From positions 1 through 5,049 of the forward strand of contig JACPQY010000015.1 of the NCBI GenBank assembly GCA_016190245.1: DNA of 5,049 bases. Reading direction: 5' to 3'. The stretch is from Nitrospirota bacterium. GTDB taxonomy: Bacteria > JACPQY01. Shown in pieces: positions 1 through 5,049 of this stretch; positions within the stretch are counted from its first letter, which is position 1; each line of letters begins with the position of its first letter. Under the pieces are notes generated by a model. That model was not told where the DNA came from, did not search any database, and saw nothing but the letters and a program-made list of their open reading frames with translations. Position numbers and translations under genes: made by a program.

Positions 1-1211
1 GCGTAGGGGCCGGTGAAGGGGCCGTCGTAGGGCTCGAGGCCGGACTCTTCGATCACCTCGACGTCCTTGTTGATCCTGGCGACGGCCTTCTTCAGCAGGG
101 CGAACGCCTTCCTGGGGCTCTGCCTGGGGACGAGGCGCATGCTGACCTTGGCCTCGGCCCAGGGCGGGACGACGGTCTTGACGCCGGGGCCGGTGTAGCC
201 GCCGACGAGGCCGTGCACCTCGAAGGTGGGGGTGGCCCAGATGCGGACCATGACGTCGAGGGGGTTGGTGGTGCGCAGCGAGTGCAGCTCGTGGGCGGAC
301 TGGAATTTCTTGACGTTGAACCCGGAGGCCTTGAAGCTCTTGATCTCGGCGGCGGTCGGCTTGACGACGTCCTTGTAGAAGCCGGGGATGAAGACCTTGC
401 CGGTCCTGGCGTCGTACAGCTTCGAGATGACCTGCGCCAGCTCGCCGATCGGGTTTCGGGCGGCGCCGCCGGTGAGGCCGGAGTGGGCGTCCTTCCCTCC
501 GGTGCGCAGCACGAGGCGCGCCGGCTTCATGCCGCGCAGGCCGTACGGGATGGCCGGCTTGCCGGCCGACAGCCAGATGGTGTCGGACACGAGGACCGAC
601 TCGGTCCCGAGGGACGGGAGCTTGCTCTTGATGAACTCCTCGAAGTGGGGGCTGCCGATCTCTTCCTCGAACTCCCAGACGAAGCGGATGTTCAGGGGGA
701 TGCGGTTGTCGGCGGCGTACCGGGCGGCGAACAGGGCGGTGAGGCCGGGGCCCTTGTCGTCGGTCGAGCCGCGGCCGAAGTAGCGGTCGCCGTCCTTCCT
801 GAACTTGAACGGCTCCTGCTTCCACTCCGGCTCCTGCGCCGGCTGCACGTCCATGTGGTTGTAGATGGTCAGGGTGGGGTGCGCCGGGTTCCCGGTCCTG
901 AATTCCCCGACGACGACCGGGTTGCCTGAGGTCGGCACGACCTCGGCCGACGTCGCGCCGCACTCGCGCAGCAGCTCGACGGCGGCCTCGGCGCCGCGCG
1001 CGATGTCGGGCTTGTGCGCCGGGTCCATGCTGACGGTCGGGATCTCGACCAACTGGCAGAGGCGGTCCTCGAACTCGCCGCGGATGCCGGCCACGTAAGC
1101 GTCGATCTTCGCGCCGTCGGCCTGGATGACCTGGCCGGCCCGGACGCTTTCCATCGGCTGCTGGCGGGTTCCTGTCCTGGTGCTGCTCATCGGTGTGCTC
1201 GGGCTGCTCAT
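1..1211 (-). CDS. M20-family metallodipeptidase (CNDP/DUG1-like), C-terminus off window
   Basis: Predicted zinc-dependent cytosolic dipeptidase or aminoacyl-peptide hydrolase; no signal peptide is visible. About 403 codons can be read. The catalytic set is in order: NHMDVQP (metal ligand His119, Asp121), GRGSTDDKGP (bridging Asp151), FEEEIGS (general base Glu183, ligand Glu184) and VLVSD (ligand Asp210). KDAHSG (His243) opens the lid/dimerisation domain, and PPWAEAKVSMRLVP near residue 350 returns to the catalytic domain. The last metal-binding His should lie in the missing C-terminus; family members are usually about 450-480 residues. The ATG at 1211 is chosen because AGGAGG (minus strand, 1224-1219) lies 7 bases upstream; in-frame ATGs at 1190 and 1154 lack this. 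Arg is often encoded by AGG. Family assignment is firm; the exact substrate is not determined. The upstream ATPase gene is co-oriented but 199 bases away, so an operon is doubtful. Confidence 0.93.
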   Translation of the reverse strand, partial: MSSPSTPMSSTRTGTRQQPMESVRAGQVIQADGAKIDAYVAGIRGEFEDRLCQLVEIPTVSMDPAHKPDIARGAEAAVELLRECGATSAEVVPTSGNPVVVGEFRTGNPAHPTLTIYNHMDVQPAQEPEWKQEPFKFRKDGDRYFGRGSTDDKGPGLTALFAARYAADNRIPLNIRFVWEFEEEIGSPHFEEFIKSKLPSLGTESVLVSDTIWLSAGKPAIPYGLRGMKPARLVLRTGGKDAHSGLTGGAARNPIGELAQVISKLYDARTGKVFIPGFYKDVVKPTAAEIKSFKASGFNVKKFQSAHELHSLRTTNPLDVMVRIWATPTFEVHGLVGGYTGPGVKTVVPPWAEAKVSMRLVPRQSPRKAFALLKKAVARINKDVEVIEESGLEPYDGPFTGPY

Positions 1212-1401: not shown

Positions 1402-1418
1402 CGCCGTTGTTCACGGCG
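1402..1418 (-). other. Small hairpin across the ATPase stop codon
   Basis: CGCCGT (1402-1407) and ACGGCG (1413-1418) pair perfectly around a 5-base loop. The hairpin overlaps the TGA stop of the ATPase gene (1413-1411). No T-run follows on the minus strand, so it is not a standard intrinsic terminator. It could still slow transcription or protect the transcript end. Confidence 0.3.
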
Positions 1419-2664
1419 TTTCCCAGAGCGCGCGGAGCGACACGGCATGAAGTCCGTCGCCGAAACTTGCACTCGTCTCGCCGTCATAGAGCACCACACC
1501 ACCAGCAAAGCGCCTGCCCGCGGCTTCCCGGAGCTTGCGCAGGCCACGAAAGTCCGCGGCTGTCACCGTGGCCGCCGCCTTGACCTCCACGCCGGCAAGA
1601 GCACGCGCGCCATGTTCCATGACGATGTCCACCTCCGAGCCGTCCTTGTCGCGGAAATGAAAGAATGCCAACGGATCTTCGTACCAGCTCGCCTGTCGCC
1701 GCAACTCCTGGAATACAAAGGTTTCGAGAAGCTGGCCCAGCAGGGGCCGATCGGCCGCGAGCCCCGCGGGGTCCATCCCCACGAGCGCGCAGGCGAGCCC
1801 GGTATCGCCGACGTGAAGCTTGGGTGTCTTGACGAGCCGGCTCAGGCGGTTGCTGTGCCAGGGAGGCAGCGTCTCCAGCAGAAACACCCGCTCCAGCAGA
1901 GTGACGTAATCGCGGATCGTCGGCCGACTGAGCTGGAACGGTGCCGACAGATCGGCTACGTTCAGCAGCCGCGCGGTCTGCGCCGCGGCCAGCGCGAGCA
2001 GACGCGGGAGTGCGTCGAGCGAGCTGATGCGAGCCAGATCGCGGACGTCCCGCTGAACCAGTGCGTCGAGATAATCGCGGTACCAGGCGGTGCGCCGCCG
2101 CCCCGCCTGTCTCGCGAGCGCCGCCGGATATCCGCCCGCGACGATCCGCTCGGCGAGCTGGACGCCCAGCCGTTCGGTTTGCCGGGTCTTGAATCCGCCT
2201 TCAAACAGGGCATCGAGAAAGCCAGGCGCACGACGCGCCAGCTCGCACTGCGCCAGCGGGTAGAGCCGCTGGATCTGAATGCGACCGGCCAGCGAGTCAG
2301 CCAGCTTCGGCACCAGCAGCACGTTCGCCGAGCCCGTCATGATGAAACGGCCCGGCACACGGCTGCGATCGACCGAAGTCTTCAGCGCCGTGAAGAGCGT
2401 TGGAACCCGCTGCACCTCGTCCAGGATCGCGCGCGTCGGGAGATCGGCCACGAATCCCGCAGGGTCGGCCTCGGCGGCACCGCGCGCGACCTCATCGTCG
2501 AAGTTGATGTAGGCGTAACCCATGCGGTCGCCCACCACCCGCGCGAGCGTGGTCTTGCCGCACTGGCGCGGGCCGTGGATGAGCACGACGGGCGAATCCG
2601 TCAGCGCCTCGGTCAGGGGCGCCTCGGCGTAACGTGGGTAGAGGGTGGTCGTGGGCACGGCCAA
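1411..2664 (-). CDS. AAA_14/DUF4143-family ATPase with C-terminal nuclease-like domain
   Basis: Full-length member (417 residues) of the widespread AAA_14 + DUF4143 ATP-binding family; its cellular role is not established. The N-terminal P-loop domain shows Walker A GPRQCGKTT (31-39), Walker B AILDEVQ (79-85), a sensor-like FIMTGSAN (107-114) and SLAGR (Arg128). GGYPAAL (175-181) and the Y-x-RDVRDL region (193-208) are family hallmarks. A winged-helix-like part covers about 222-262. The DUF4143 domain ends in a PD-(D/E)XK-like core: Glu312 in LLETFVFQEL, Asp344 in GSEVDIV, and Glu358/Lys360 in GVEVKAA. All key residues are intact. The start is set at TTG 2664, 6 bases after AAAGG (minus strand, 2675-2671); GTG at 2658 is the alternative. 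The gene stands alone between the peptidase and the IS. The start region carries a 23-bp tandem repeat array that may control it. Confidence 0.9.
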   Translation of the reverse strand: MAVPTTTLYPRYAEAPLTEALTDSPVVLIHGPRQCGKTTLARVVGDRMGYAYINFDDEVARGAAEADPAGFVADLPTRAILDEVQRVPTLFTALKTSVDRSRVPGRFIMTGSANVLLVPKLADSLAGRIQIQRLYPLAQCELARRAPGFLDALFEGGFKTRQTERLGVQLAERIVAGGYPAALARQAGRRRTAWYRDYLDALVQRDVRDLARISSLDALPRLLALAAAQTARLLNVADLSAPFQLSRPTIRDYVTLLERVFLLETLPPWHSNRLSRLVKTPKLHVGDTGLACALVGMDPAGLAADRPLLGQLLETFVFQELRRQASWYEDPLAFFHFRDKDGSEVDIVMEHGARALAGVEVKAAATVTAADFRGLRKLREAAGRRFAGGVVLYDGETSASFGDGLHAVSLRALWETP

Positions 2665-2749
2665 TCGTAACCTTTGGGTTCGGCCAATTGCAAGGTTATG
2701 GGTCGGCTAAACGAAAGGATTGCGGCCGGCCGATTGCAAGGCGAGGCCA
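2658..2749. repeat. Four-copy tandem array, 23-bp period, over the ATPase start
   Basis: Units begin at 2658, 2681, 2704 and 2727, exactly 23 bp apart. Their first 15 bases are CGGCCAATCGTAACC, CGGCCAATTGCAAGG, CGGCTAAACGAAAGG and CGGCCGATTGCAAGG. Eight of these 15 positions are invariant (CGGC at 1-4, then 7, 10, 12, 13) and five more agree in three of four copies. The remaining 8 bases of each unit diverge. Copies 2 and 4 match at 14 of 15. The array starts at codon 3 of the ATPase gene and extends about 85 bases upstream, covering its SD and presumed promoter. Inference: iteron-like operator, possibly bound by the ATPase's own winged-helix region. Confidence 0.75.
2668..2698 (-). promoter_or_regulatory. 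7-bp inverted repeat overlapping the ATPase SD
   Basis: TAACCTT (2668-2674) and AAGGTTA (2692-2698) are perfect inverted copies 17 bases apart. In the minus-strand transcript the downstream arm contains most of the AAAGG Shine-Dalgarno (2675-2671) that precedes the TTG start at 2664. If folded, the stem would hide the ribosome binding site; as DNA it could be an operator. It sits across units 1 and 2 of the 23-bp array. Confidence 0.4.
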
Positions 2750-2873
2750 GGATTGCCTCGACACTGAAGCTGCCCGCTGCCTCATCCCCTCCATTCTCGA
2801 GAAGCAGTGCACGAGCGTCCTGATCCCGCCCTGCGCCCGCTGGGCTCGCGCCCCCCCGGCCCCGGGTAATGGG
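2750..2873. other. Gap between ATPase upstream array and IS, no gene seen
   Basis: No reading frame here looks coding: the short frames in this stretch run into or antisense to the neighbouring genes. A C-run (2851-2857) lies just outside the IS. A tRNA T-arm-like string at 2817-2834 does not extend to a tRNA. Confidence 0.5.
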
Positions 2874-3903
2874 CTAAATCCGTGTTGCCGCCTCAAGTAG
2901 CTCACGCACCGTCCAAACGTGATCCGTGATTCCGCTTCCCATGCCAGGCGTGACTCGGGTCGCGGAGTGAACGCGGCACAGGTTGTACCATGCCGCGAAG
3001 AGTGCCACGGCCGCCTTGAAGCCGTCCAGCTTCTTGCTGAATGCGTTCACGAGTCGCCCCATCCGGCGGATGTGCTGGCGAAGGATGCCGTTCGCCCGCT
3101 CGATATGGCAGGTGGAGATTCGGGACGGGTCCGGATCGCCTGAGAAGATTCTTCGGAACATCCCGATCACCTTCGGTGCAGGCTTGTACCACTCAGGGGC
3201 GCTCGGCGTCTCTGGCTGACCGAATACCTTGGTCTGCTGACCGTAATGCACGTCCGCACCGAAATGCTCCTCGACCGCCGGAACGTACCAATTCAAGCCG
3301 TCCGTGCTGAGTTGGAACACGCCGTCAACGCGACGGCGCAGACCTTCGATGAATTCATAAGCCGACACGCTGTCGCGCTTCCCGACGTGATACGAAAGGA
3401 TCGCCTTCGTCTCAGAATCCAGCGCGGCCCACACGTAGCAGTCGCCCCACTCAGGAGGGTCGGTCCGGCGGACACGCTTTTCCTTGGTGTGGATGTAGCT
3501 CCACGCTTCGTCCGCCTGGACAAACCGCGTCCGGACGCCGCTCATCTTCGCATCCATGAGGCGCTCACAGTTCCGGCCGATGGTCAGGAGGATCGCCATC
3601 ACCGTGTTCTTGTGGAGTCCCGTGAGTCGGCTGGTTGCCCTGATGCTCATGCCCTCGGTGATGAGGCCGACCACATGGATCGCCTTCTCCATGTCGGTGT
3701 AGTGGTTCCCGAGTGGCTTCTGACGGGGCTCAAGGAACGTGGCCCGGCAGGAGTGACAGCGGTAACGCTGAATGCGATTCTTAGCGAAGCCGAAGCGCTT
3801 CGCCTTCCCGTGCTGGCATTTCAGGCAGGTCATAGTCCGCCCCTTGCAGAAGAGGCGGGGAAAGCCGATAATGGCGCTGTCTCTGGGCCATGCGGCTTAC
3901 CCC
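2864..3903 (-). mobile_element. IS1-like insertion sequence, about 1.04 kb (ends approximate)
   Basis: The element is defined by the intact transposase gene. The best candidate ends are GGGTAA at 2864-2869 and its inverse TTACCC at 3898-3903, which place the left end 10 bases past the transposase stop and the right end about 65 bases before its start. Beyond these 6 bases the ends match only scattered positions, and the flanking 9 bases (2855-2863 and 3904-3912) are not a target duplication. The boundaries are therefore tentative; the presence of an IS is not in doubt. Confidence 0.6.
2874..3833 (-). CDS. IS1-like DDE transposase, complete
   Basis: Catalyses cut and strand transfer of its own IS. 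The 319-residue protein begins with a zinc finger (Cys3, Cys6, Cys26, Cys29), as in InsA-type proteins. A helix-turn-helix follows (about 60-85, SIRATSRLTGLHKNTV). The DDE catalytic core is Asp108 in QADEAWSY, Asp178 in STDGLNWY and Glu245 in CHIERANGILRQH. The C-terminal block FSKKLDGFKAAVALFAAWYN, followed by CRVHSATRVTP and GITDHVW, is a signature of IS1-like single-frame transposases from environmental bacteria. Unlike classical IS1, zinc finger and catalytic domain lie in one frame, so no frameshift is needed. ATG at 3833 is preceded by GGGGCGG. The reading frame is unbroken and all catalytic residues are present, so it may be active. Asp131 and Trp111 also fit the family. Confidence 0.93.
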   Translation of the reverse strand: MTCLKCQHGKAKRFGFAKNRIQRYRCHSCRATFLEPRQKPLGNHYTDMEKAIHVVGLITEGMSIRATSRLTGLHKNTVMAILLTIGRNCERLMDAKMSGVRTRFVQADEAWSYIHTKEKRVRRTDPPEWGDCYVWAALDSETKAILSYHVGKRDSVSAYEFIEGLRRRVDGVFQLSTDGLNWYVPAVEEHFGADVHYGQQTKVFGQPETPSAPEWYKPAPKVIGMFRRIFSGDPDPSRISTCHIERANGILRQHIRRMGRLVNAFSKKLDGFKAAVALFAAWYNLCRVHSATRVTPGMGSGITDHVWTVRELLEAATRI

Positions 3904-4080
3904 GCGTGGTTTAGAACGGCCCGGCCAGCCGTTCACGCGGCTGACCGGGCATTGAACTGAGTGGCCCACCATGGCCCGTTCCTGCGACCCGGCGAAGGCA
4001 TCGAGGGACGGGCCTTCGTGTTTCTGCCCGCTCACGTCGGTGAGCGCCTCTTGAACGTCGCGGGCTAGGTTAGGTCTCAT
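3781..4080 (-). CDS. Possible small protein running into the transposase gene
   Basis: A frame of 99 residues from ATG 4080; GGGAG (minus strand, 4094-4090) lies 9 bases upstream. An in-frame TTG at 4086 is only 3 bases from that SD and less likely. The first 45 or so codons show GC-rich third positions like a real gene (MRPNLARDVQEALTDVSGQK is the N-terminus). The last 18 codons overlap the start of the transposase in another frame. No domain is recognised. It could be a host gene truncated by the IS, an IS leader peptide, or a chance frame. The ATG is 170 bases from the divergent gene at 4250, so the two could share control sites. Confidence 0.35.
   Translation of the reverse strand: MRPNLARDVQEALTDVSGQKHEGPSLDAFAGSQERAMVGHSVQCPVSRVNGWPGRSKPRGVSRMAQRQRHYRLSPPLLQGADYDLPEMPAREGEALRLR
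3919..3950. repeat. Strong hairpin: 13-bp stem with one mismatch, 6-base loop
   Basis: GCCCGGCCAGCCG (3919-3931) pairs with CGGCTGACCGGGC (3938-3950) around TTCACG, with one C-A mismatch (3925/3944). There is no T-run on either side, so it is not a standard intrinsic terminator. It lies just outside the candidate right end of the IS and inside the small minus-strand frame. It may limit read-through into the transposase or be a short interspersed palindrome. Confidence 0.55.
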
Positions 4081-4144
4081 GGCCAATCACTCCCACTGAC
4101 GCGCCCCTTGTATCACCGCTACATCTACCTGTCAAGGACAATAT

Positions 4145-4249: not shown

Positions 4250-5049
4250 ATGGGAGACAAGCGAAGCCCTAACTACCCGGCAGTTGGTCTGGGCAAAGCC
4301 GTTGAAGACGTGCGGTCATGGTGGGCCCAGGAGAAGCGCAGTCCAGTCGCGGCAGAGGTGGGCGTGAAGGCGTGGGGGTATAAGATGCTGAGCGGCCCGG
4401 CGCGAACCCGCATTTCTGCTCTCAAGAAATATGGGTTCCTGGAAGAGACTCCCAACGGGTTCAAGCTTTCTGACCGAGGGGTCGCCGTGAGCATCCACAA
4501 GCCAGAGGAGCGCGACTATCAGGACGCGATCCGCGCGGCGGCGATGGAACCGGACCTGTTCCGCGAGTTGTTGGATACGCACGCTGATGCTTCTGAGCAG
4601 GCGATCACGAACCACTTGATCATGAAGCGGGGCTTCGTGCCTCTTGGTGCCAAGCAGGCCGCCAAGGCGTTCAAGGACACGATTGCAGTTGCCAAACTTC
4701 AAGATTCCTCGTATGCTTCCCGTGGCGGTAACGGCGCTGGCAAGCCCGAGCTGGCCCTTGGCGACACGGTTCAGTGGGAATCCCAGGGGATGCTCCAGTT
4801 CGACGTGCCGCGCAAAATCACTGGTTTCAGCGACGACGGAACAATCGCCTTCGTCGAGGGAACCGGCACGGGGATTCCAGTGCAACAGTTGCAGAAAGTT
4901 GATGCTGCGCCATCAGGGGGACCGAGCCCGTCAACCTTTTCCACAATGCCTGGAAGTACGGCCAAGACATCGGTATCAAGTGTTTTCCCGCTCCCAGGAG
5001 GAAACCGCGTTCAGGTCATGCTCGATCGCAAGGTGACGGCCAAGGAATA
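4250..5049 (+). CDS. Uncharacterised protein with winged-helix-like N-terminal region, C-terminus off window
   Basis: Function unknown; 266 codons are visible and the frame is open to the edge. Residues 8-85 look like a winged helix: YPAVGLGKAVEDV, then VAAEVGVKAWGYKMLSGPAR (33-52), the recognition-like RTRISALKKYGFLEE (52-66) and a wing FKLSDRGVAV (71-80). Residues 86-152 are helical and include AAMEPDLFREL (97-107) and the MKRGFVPLGAKQAAKAFKDT segment (125-144). After a Gly/Ser linker (153-166) comes a beta-rich module GDTVQWESQGMLQFDVPRKI (171-190) to FSDDGTIAFVEGTGTGIPV (193-211), then a Ser/Pro/Thr-rich stretch (219-245) and PLPGGNRVQVMLDRKVTAKE (247-266). From memory, the AWGY/LSG/LKKYG and QWES/QF/FVEG/TGIP patterns recur together in bacterial and phage hypothetical proteins. 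There is no transmembrane segment or signal peptide. The gene has its own promoter and SD. A DNA-binding regulator or accessory/phage-related role is inference. Confidence 0.85.
   Translation, partial: MGDKRSPNYPAVGLGKAVEDVRSWWAQEKRSPVAAEVGVKAWGYKMLSGPARTRISALKKYGFLEETPNGFKLSDRGVAVSIHKPEERDYQDAIRAAAMEPDLFRELLDTHADASEQAITNHLIMKRGFVPLGAKQAAKAFKDTIAVAKLQDSSYASRGGNGAGKPELALGDTVQWESQGMLQFDVPRKITGFSDDGTIAFVEGTGTGIPVQQLQKVDAAPSGGPSPSTFSTMPGSTAKTSVSSVFPLPGGNRVQVMLDRKVTAKE

Follow-up and report, generated by a model that had tools for sequence, protein, structure and literature searches.

The four 23-bp repeats ahead of an AAA_14/DUF4143 gene in the window, i.e., the whole 5,049-nucleotide stretch of Nitrospirota DNA that was analysed, are on comparative sequence evidence part of a conserved, gene-linked control switch. 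The array probably serves as operator and core promoter of this gene, whose product, a predicted ATPase-nuclease, would bind it through a winged helix and repress its own expression. The gene is a member of PDC-S01, a very common single-gene candidate for anti-phage defence. PDC-S01 is reported to rank fourth in abundance among prokaryotic defence types and to combine ATPase and PD-(D/E)XK parts, and for most PDCs experimental validation is pending (PMC12988326). The gene and the four repeat units are located as follows:

1411-2658, minus strand: AAA_14/DUF4143 ATPase-nuclease gene (PADLOC PDC-S01), 415 aa from GTG, assigned by Pfam, PADLOC, AlphaFold2 (AF2) and fold matches
2658-2680, minus strand: unit 1, gene-proximal, TTACGATTGGCCG core; TACGAT (2669-2664) is a putative -10 box, and the GTG start begins with the final base of the unit
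2681-2703, minus strand: unit 2, TTGCAATTGGCCG core, matching the consensus exactly; TTGCAA (2693-2688) is a putative -35 box, 18 bp from the -10 box
2704-2726, minus strand: unit 3, TTTCGTTTAGCCG core
2727-2749, minus strand: unit 4, gene-distal, TTGCAATCGGCCG core

The position of the phased four-unit array (2658-2749) and its exact 23-bp register, both reported in the initial annotation, are borne out, also by TRF, which detected the same array. In gene direction each unit consists, approximately, of CC-TTGCAATTGGCCG with a variable spacer behind it. The division of each unit into a conserved and a diverged part likewise stands, with an exact register but unit sequences that are not identical. 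A period of 23 gives the best phased match over 69 window positions, with 44 identities, as compared to 35.2 +/- 1.3 and a maximum of 43 in 300 local shuffles at periods of 10-40. The array has no match to a known structured RNA in Rfam.

A scan of 84,980 species genomes yielded 46 relatives of 48-84% identity, distributed over Acidobacteria, Proteobacteria, Chloroflexi, Actinobacteria, Verrucomicrobia, Bacteroidetes and other phyla, and a paralogue in the own genome, 73% identical, has the same array. Repeats upstream of close homologues, which the initial annotation had proposed to look for, are present in all 48 members of the set formed by these relatives, the window and the paralogue, with 1-12 units per gene and the consensus TTKCRATYRGMCG. 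At least two units are found in 47 of the 48; in the one locus with a single unit (L053), the sequence at that spot contains a run of N. The spacing of the units is highly constant (133 of 137 spacings at 22-23 bp, comprising 121 of 23 bp and 12 of 22 bp; 4 are other), and the information content reaches up to 2 bits per position in the TTKCRATYRGMCG core versus 0.1-0.4 bits in the spacer, in loci of 41-72% GC. Few motif matches occur in the remainder of the 48 loci. The shuffles, the conservation of spacing over the 48 loci and the difference in information between core and spacer rule out chance or recent slippage as origin of the array, as had been supposed for slippage. In one homologue (L078) at least 12 units lie upstream of position 1501, with three-unit blocks (69 bp) tandemly repeated into a higher-order array. 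In another (L071, 2797-2835) two more units are observed on the plus strand, ~60 nt past the gene's stop codon, and no other member of the family comes after them in this locus.

The motif is closely linked to this gene family. A search of the own genome for other copies, also proposed at the outset, revealed no scatter: exact copies occur only at the array gene and its paralogue, which rules out a genome-wide dispersed repeat, and copies with a single mismatch elsewhere are at or below the number expected by chance. In 386 genomes picked irrespective of the gene, the two-unit phased pattern, with at most 2 mismatches, is found in 10 genomes at a total of 11 places, of which 8 lie directly before a PDC-S01-family gene, while the reversed pattern, used as control, has no occurrences in the same genomes. 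One of these eight genes is broken, the reading frame behind the array being interrupted near its start (L154, G119:C162). The other three places comprise one inside a coding sequence, one three-unit array and one degenerate set. The three-unit array (L151, G310:C3:4060-4118), with TACAAT in its last unit, is followed by no family gene up to the end of the contig and is possibly an orphan remnant. The degenerate phased units (L159, G317:C30:39804-39839) are located directly before a leucyl-aminopeptidase-like gene and may be due to chance, be a remnant or be a target in trans.

The array had been placed over codons 1-3 and the SD of the gene, and this part of the description has to be revised. 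Since the homologues begin directly behind GCCG, the GTG at 2658-2656 is the likely start, and the array therefore overlaps the gene by its first base only; it would reach codons 1-3 only if the TTG at 2664 were the start. No SD is present under the array, where the gene-proximal unit provides a -10-like hexamer instead, and SD-like motifs are found in only 2 of the 53 array-bearing genes, leaving 51 without. The units thus placed probably form a leaderless promoter. An A occupies the fifth scored position in 38 of 48 last scored units but in only 13 of the 121 others (Fisher p 1e-17), and this A changes TTGCAAT to TTACAAT, giving a TACRAT -10 hexamer in the gene-proximal unit. The preceding unit provides the -35 box (TTGCAA or TTTCAA), 17-18 bp from the -10 box. 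The ten exceptions that lack the A mostly show a degenerate unit in the next register with TATCAT, TATAAT, TACTAT or similar. A leaderless mRNA is predicted, because the start codon lies 0-4 nt behind GCCG in about 38 of the 48 genes and SD-like motifs are nearly absent. The -35/-10 pair of the window itself is weak (8 of 12 consensus bases), and a generic consensus promoter scan of the window returned nothing at the array above its threshold. The period of the arrays may be so constant because, at 22-23 bp, it matches the distance between -35 and -10 boxes.

The protein encoded by the array gene is, according to the models, an ATPase fused to a PD-(D/E)XK nuclease, as in PDC-S01. Both Pfam domains pass their gathering scores (PF13635, 154.8 bits with a cut-off of 28.1; PF13173, 90.3 bits with a cut-off of 27), and the PADLOC PDC-S01 profile PDLC04790 spans residues 5-414 of 415 (E 4.3e-167). 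The predicted protein contains an AAA+ domain (~2-140), a winged helix (~216-265) and a PD-(D/E)XK nuclease domain (~304-407). The AF2 model of the full protein, obtained with 33 homologues as input (pLDDT 83.5), shows an AAA+ core and a C-terminal alpha/beta domain, with a winged helix between them at ~216-265, in agreement with the winged-helix-like part that had been attributed to the product. Modelled residues 2-294, comprising the ATPase and the winged helix, match the archaeal ATPases 2qen (Z 15.4) and 2fna (Z 14.3) over ~250 residues with rmsd values of 4.2-4.3, and also match NLR/STAND cores. A search by sequence for a solved homologue gave matches to the ATPase core only. The C-terminal domain, modelled alone with pLDDT 92.6, resembles EcoT38I, McrC, Can2, EndoMS and other PD-(D/E)XK nucleases with middling Z scores of 7-8. 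The E-x-D...E-x-K residues of the PD-(D/E)XK fold (E342, D344, E358, K360) and the Walker A and B motifs are invariant or near-invariant.

Among more distant relatives the arrangement is kept while the motif drifts. At 45-50% identity, rhizobial and other plasmid relatives show a drifted motif in arrays of period 22, and a period of 23 is kept with other motifs in L113 (37% identity, TTAACATTTCGCCA) and L114 (36%, GGCAAATGGTGG), as well as in L120, L127 and L129. Several other clades contain palindromic units; in L130, copies of TGGTTGACATTCAACCA spaced by 22 bp cover the -35 and -10 boxes, with an ATG directly behind, and similar palindromic units are found in Azotobacter and Pseudomonas mendocina. 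The operators of 117 family members comprise 53 TTKCAAT arrays, 16 other phased arrays, 25 palindromes and 23 classed as none by the cut-offs of the analysis, with L113, L114 and L129 (other phased arrays) and L053 (TTKCAAT) placed by hand. Of the genes that lack a TTKCAAT array, 43% have a palindrome with z >= 2, compared with 9% of control windows (p 3e-7). Long promoter palindromes are also observed at distant DUF4143 genes (L116, L146, L117, L188 and others), which are perfect in places (L116, 21 bp per arm). In the own genome, two distant paralogues, L003 (41% identical) and L007, have a common upstream block (CCCGTTCAGTAACTTGCATTTT and CCCGCTCAATAACTTGCATTTT, respectively, followed by GGCT...AGCC), while their proteins are only distantly related.

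Operator and protein diverge together. On the protein tree the TTKCAAT class requires 3 changes versus 36.8 when shuffled, a contrast to which near-copies contribute. Operator similarity correlates with protein identity (r 0.77; 0.43 below 60% identity). Below 45% protein identity operator likeness is at chance level, in line with motif turnover, although unrelated promoters might be concealed in this range as well. The recognition segment of the winged helix is clade-specific as well (FQLSRPTIRDY, LGLNHVTTQKY, LGLPQSTLKRY and others). Self-recognition would predict that the motif varies with the protein clade and not with the host, as is seen here. Shared descent of gene and promoter would explain part of the correlation, but not a conserved core beside a random spacer. 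An indirect result relevant to regulation in this family comes from the Thermus thermophilus HB27 AAA_14/DUF4143 gene TT_P0211, which is up 6.6-fold with plasmid DNA in an Argonaute-positive strain (PMC4406477). On pTT27, the gene at 209853-211073, which by gene order is probably TT_P0211, has TGAATGACTATCATTCA just before its ATG.

Self-regulation, which the initial annotation suggested in a cooperative form and together with the SD and codon 1-3 details that did not stand, is the best reading of these observations, because the motif diverges along with the protein and a winged helix is predicted in the latter. As in autoregulatory operators, the site overlaps the predicted promoter of its own gene and co-evolves with the protein; the promoters of relatives likewise bear palindromes or repeats of similar phase, and the protein therefore probably regulates itself. 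We infer that the ATPase-nuclease itself would bind the units through its winged helix, probably as a row of several molecules, each taking up 22-23 bp. The units cover the -35 and -10 boxes of its putative leaderless promoter and the region upstream, so that binding would shut out RNA polymerase and keep expression of the gene low. Loss of binding, whether by ATPase switching, by titration by foreign DNA or upon arrival in a new host, would then allow expression of a potential defence nuclease. Against this reading count the weak -35/-10 pair of the window and the 23 of 117 members in no operator class; DNA binding is, moreover, not universal among STAND-like winged helices.

The intact AAA+ and nuclease domains, with their Walker and E-x-D...E-x-K residues, would also suit an assembly or holding site, where oligomers of the AAA+ ATPase would form on the phased units and control the nuclease, kept inactive or loaded, with transcription as a secondary matter. 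The up to 12 units of L078 exceed what a simple repressor needs and are in line with this possibility, which we nevertheless regard as unlikely, as the tuning of the gene-proximal unit as -10 box and the constant position of the arrays on the promoter point to transcription. Self-regulation and enzyme control may also be combined. We put forward, as a tentative and rather doubtful generalisation, that a large candidate-defence family self-regulates through a clade-private DNA address, an array or palindrome over its own leaderless promoter, at which binding would also restrain the AAA+ nuclease and loss of binding would switch on both gene and enzyme; address and gene would form a self-contained cassette able to establish itself in a new host.

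Array and gene appear to travel between genomes as one cassette of ~1.4 kb. Close pairs in unrelated contexts (L060/L073, L072/L075 and others) have a third-codon identity of 63-84%, while both flanks are 30-40% identical, which is near random; the same-locus pair L057/L059, on the other hand, has a downstream identity of 92%. The similarity between near-copies begins at the distal array and stops ~5-20 nt past the stop codon, and array and gene are thus inherited and transferred as a unit. Such near-copies, with third-codon identities up to 84% and similarity that is gone just outside the array and shortly past the stop, would be expected if the array were the left end of a mobile element, consisting of array and gene and recognised by its own nuclease for transposition. 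However, no conserved motif follows the stop codon in 50 loci, where no 8-mer is common to more than 3 of the 50. A second end, terminal repeat or downstream partner site was not found, a scan for the motif on both strands gave no regular downstream copy, and the protein has no transposase domain. Because a second end was not found, array and gene are not called a transposon, and since sharp edges may also arise via other transfer mechanisms, we consider a mobile-element end distinctly improbable.

It is very unlikely that the array is bound by an unlinked host regulator, with the gene as a member of its regulon. Phased arrays are typical of ordinary repressors and activators, but the motif is tied to the gene across many phyla, is absent at other genes of the own genome and follows the protein clade rather than the host. 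That there is no dedicated binder at all, the units being duplicated promoter boxes that drifted apart, is hardly credible, since conservation of the YRGMCG half, which is no promoter element, about equals that of the box half, even if TTGCAA looks like a -35 box and TACAAT like a -10 box, with the 23-bp period equal to the usual spacing of both.

Self-regulation through the array has parallels in several known systems. Plasmid iterons are in-phase direct repeats of ~20 bp that adjoin an autoregulated winged-helix Rep gene and overlap its promoter. The array resembles them in its phased repeats at the promoter of a winged-helix gene, but the protein is no Rep initiator and no origin is indicated; an iteron-controlled replication origin was rejected, as the adjacent protein has only AAA_14/DUF4143 domains. 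In type II toxin-antitoxin systems defence or addiction genes are self-limited through operators on their own promoter, a likeness to the array gene, which, however, would act as one gene and not as a toxin-antitoxin pair. The proteins 2qen and 2fna and the STAND/NLR proteins share the ATPase and winged helix fold, to which the array gene's protein adds a DUF4143-type PD-(D/E)XK C-terminus and a linked operator. RptR of a phage defence island represses its own promoter, as shown by experiment, and the direct repeats there overlap the -10 box of this defence promoter, but it is a separate 9-kDa repressor that uses three 9-bp repeats with a TAGCTA palindrome (PMC12255303). For the array gene, with units 23 bp apart, there is no sign of a separate regulator, and the effector itself, the ATPase-nuclease, is the likely binder. 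RptR is the closest documented mechanism to the array.

The arrangement had been taken as undescribed for this family. The family itself is listed, as PADLOC PDC-S01, but no description of a PDC-S01 promoter, operator or repeats was found in the open-access papers searched. In these papers DUF4143 is mentioned once in passing, nothing useful appears under COG1373 or AAA_14, and PMC12988326 uses neither the term "promoter" nor "operator". A clade-specific DNA address would provide a handle on PDC-S01, as a defined ligand for the purified protein and as a reporter for the trigger, and the array would be a sequence signature that tells functional cassettes from remnants. If the self-regulation reading is correct, a nuclease that reads a DNA address via its own winged helix would unite effector and regulator in one polypeptide.

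Besides the array gene, the 5-kb contig contains only an M20 peptidase gene, an IS1-like transposase gene and an ORF without family match. The M20-type peptidase gene (3-1211, minus strand) is cut by the contig start. The IS1-like transposase gene (2874-3833, minus strand), upstream of the array, matches NF033558 with 93 bits, just below the cut-off of 100, and inverted-repeat ends of this IS are absent from 2750-4100. The ORF (4250-5047, plus strand), which has no Pfam or NCBIfam match, is preceded by AAGGAGG and runs off the contig. Some of the plasmid relatives have toxin-antitoxin genes as neighbours.
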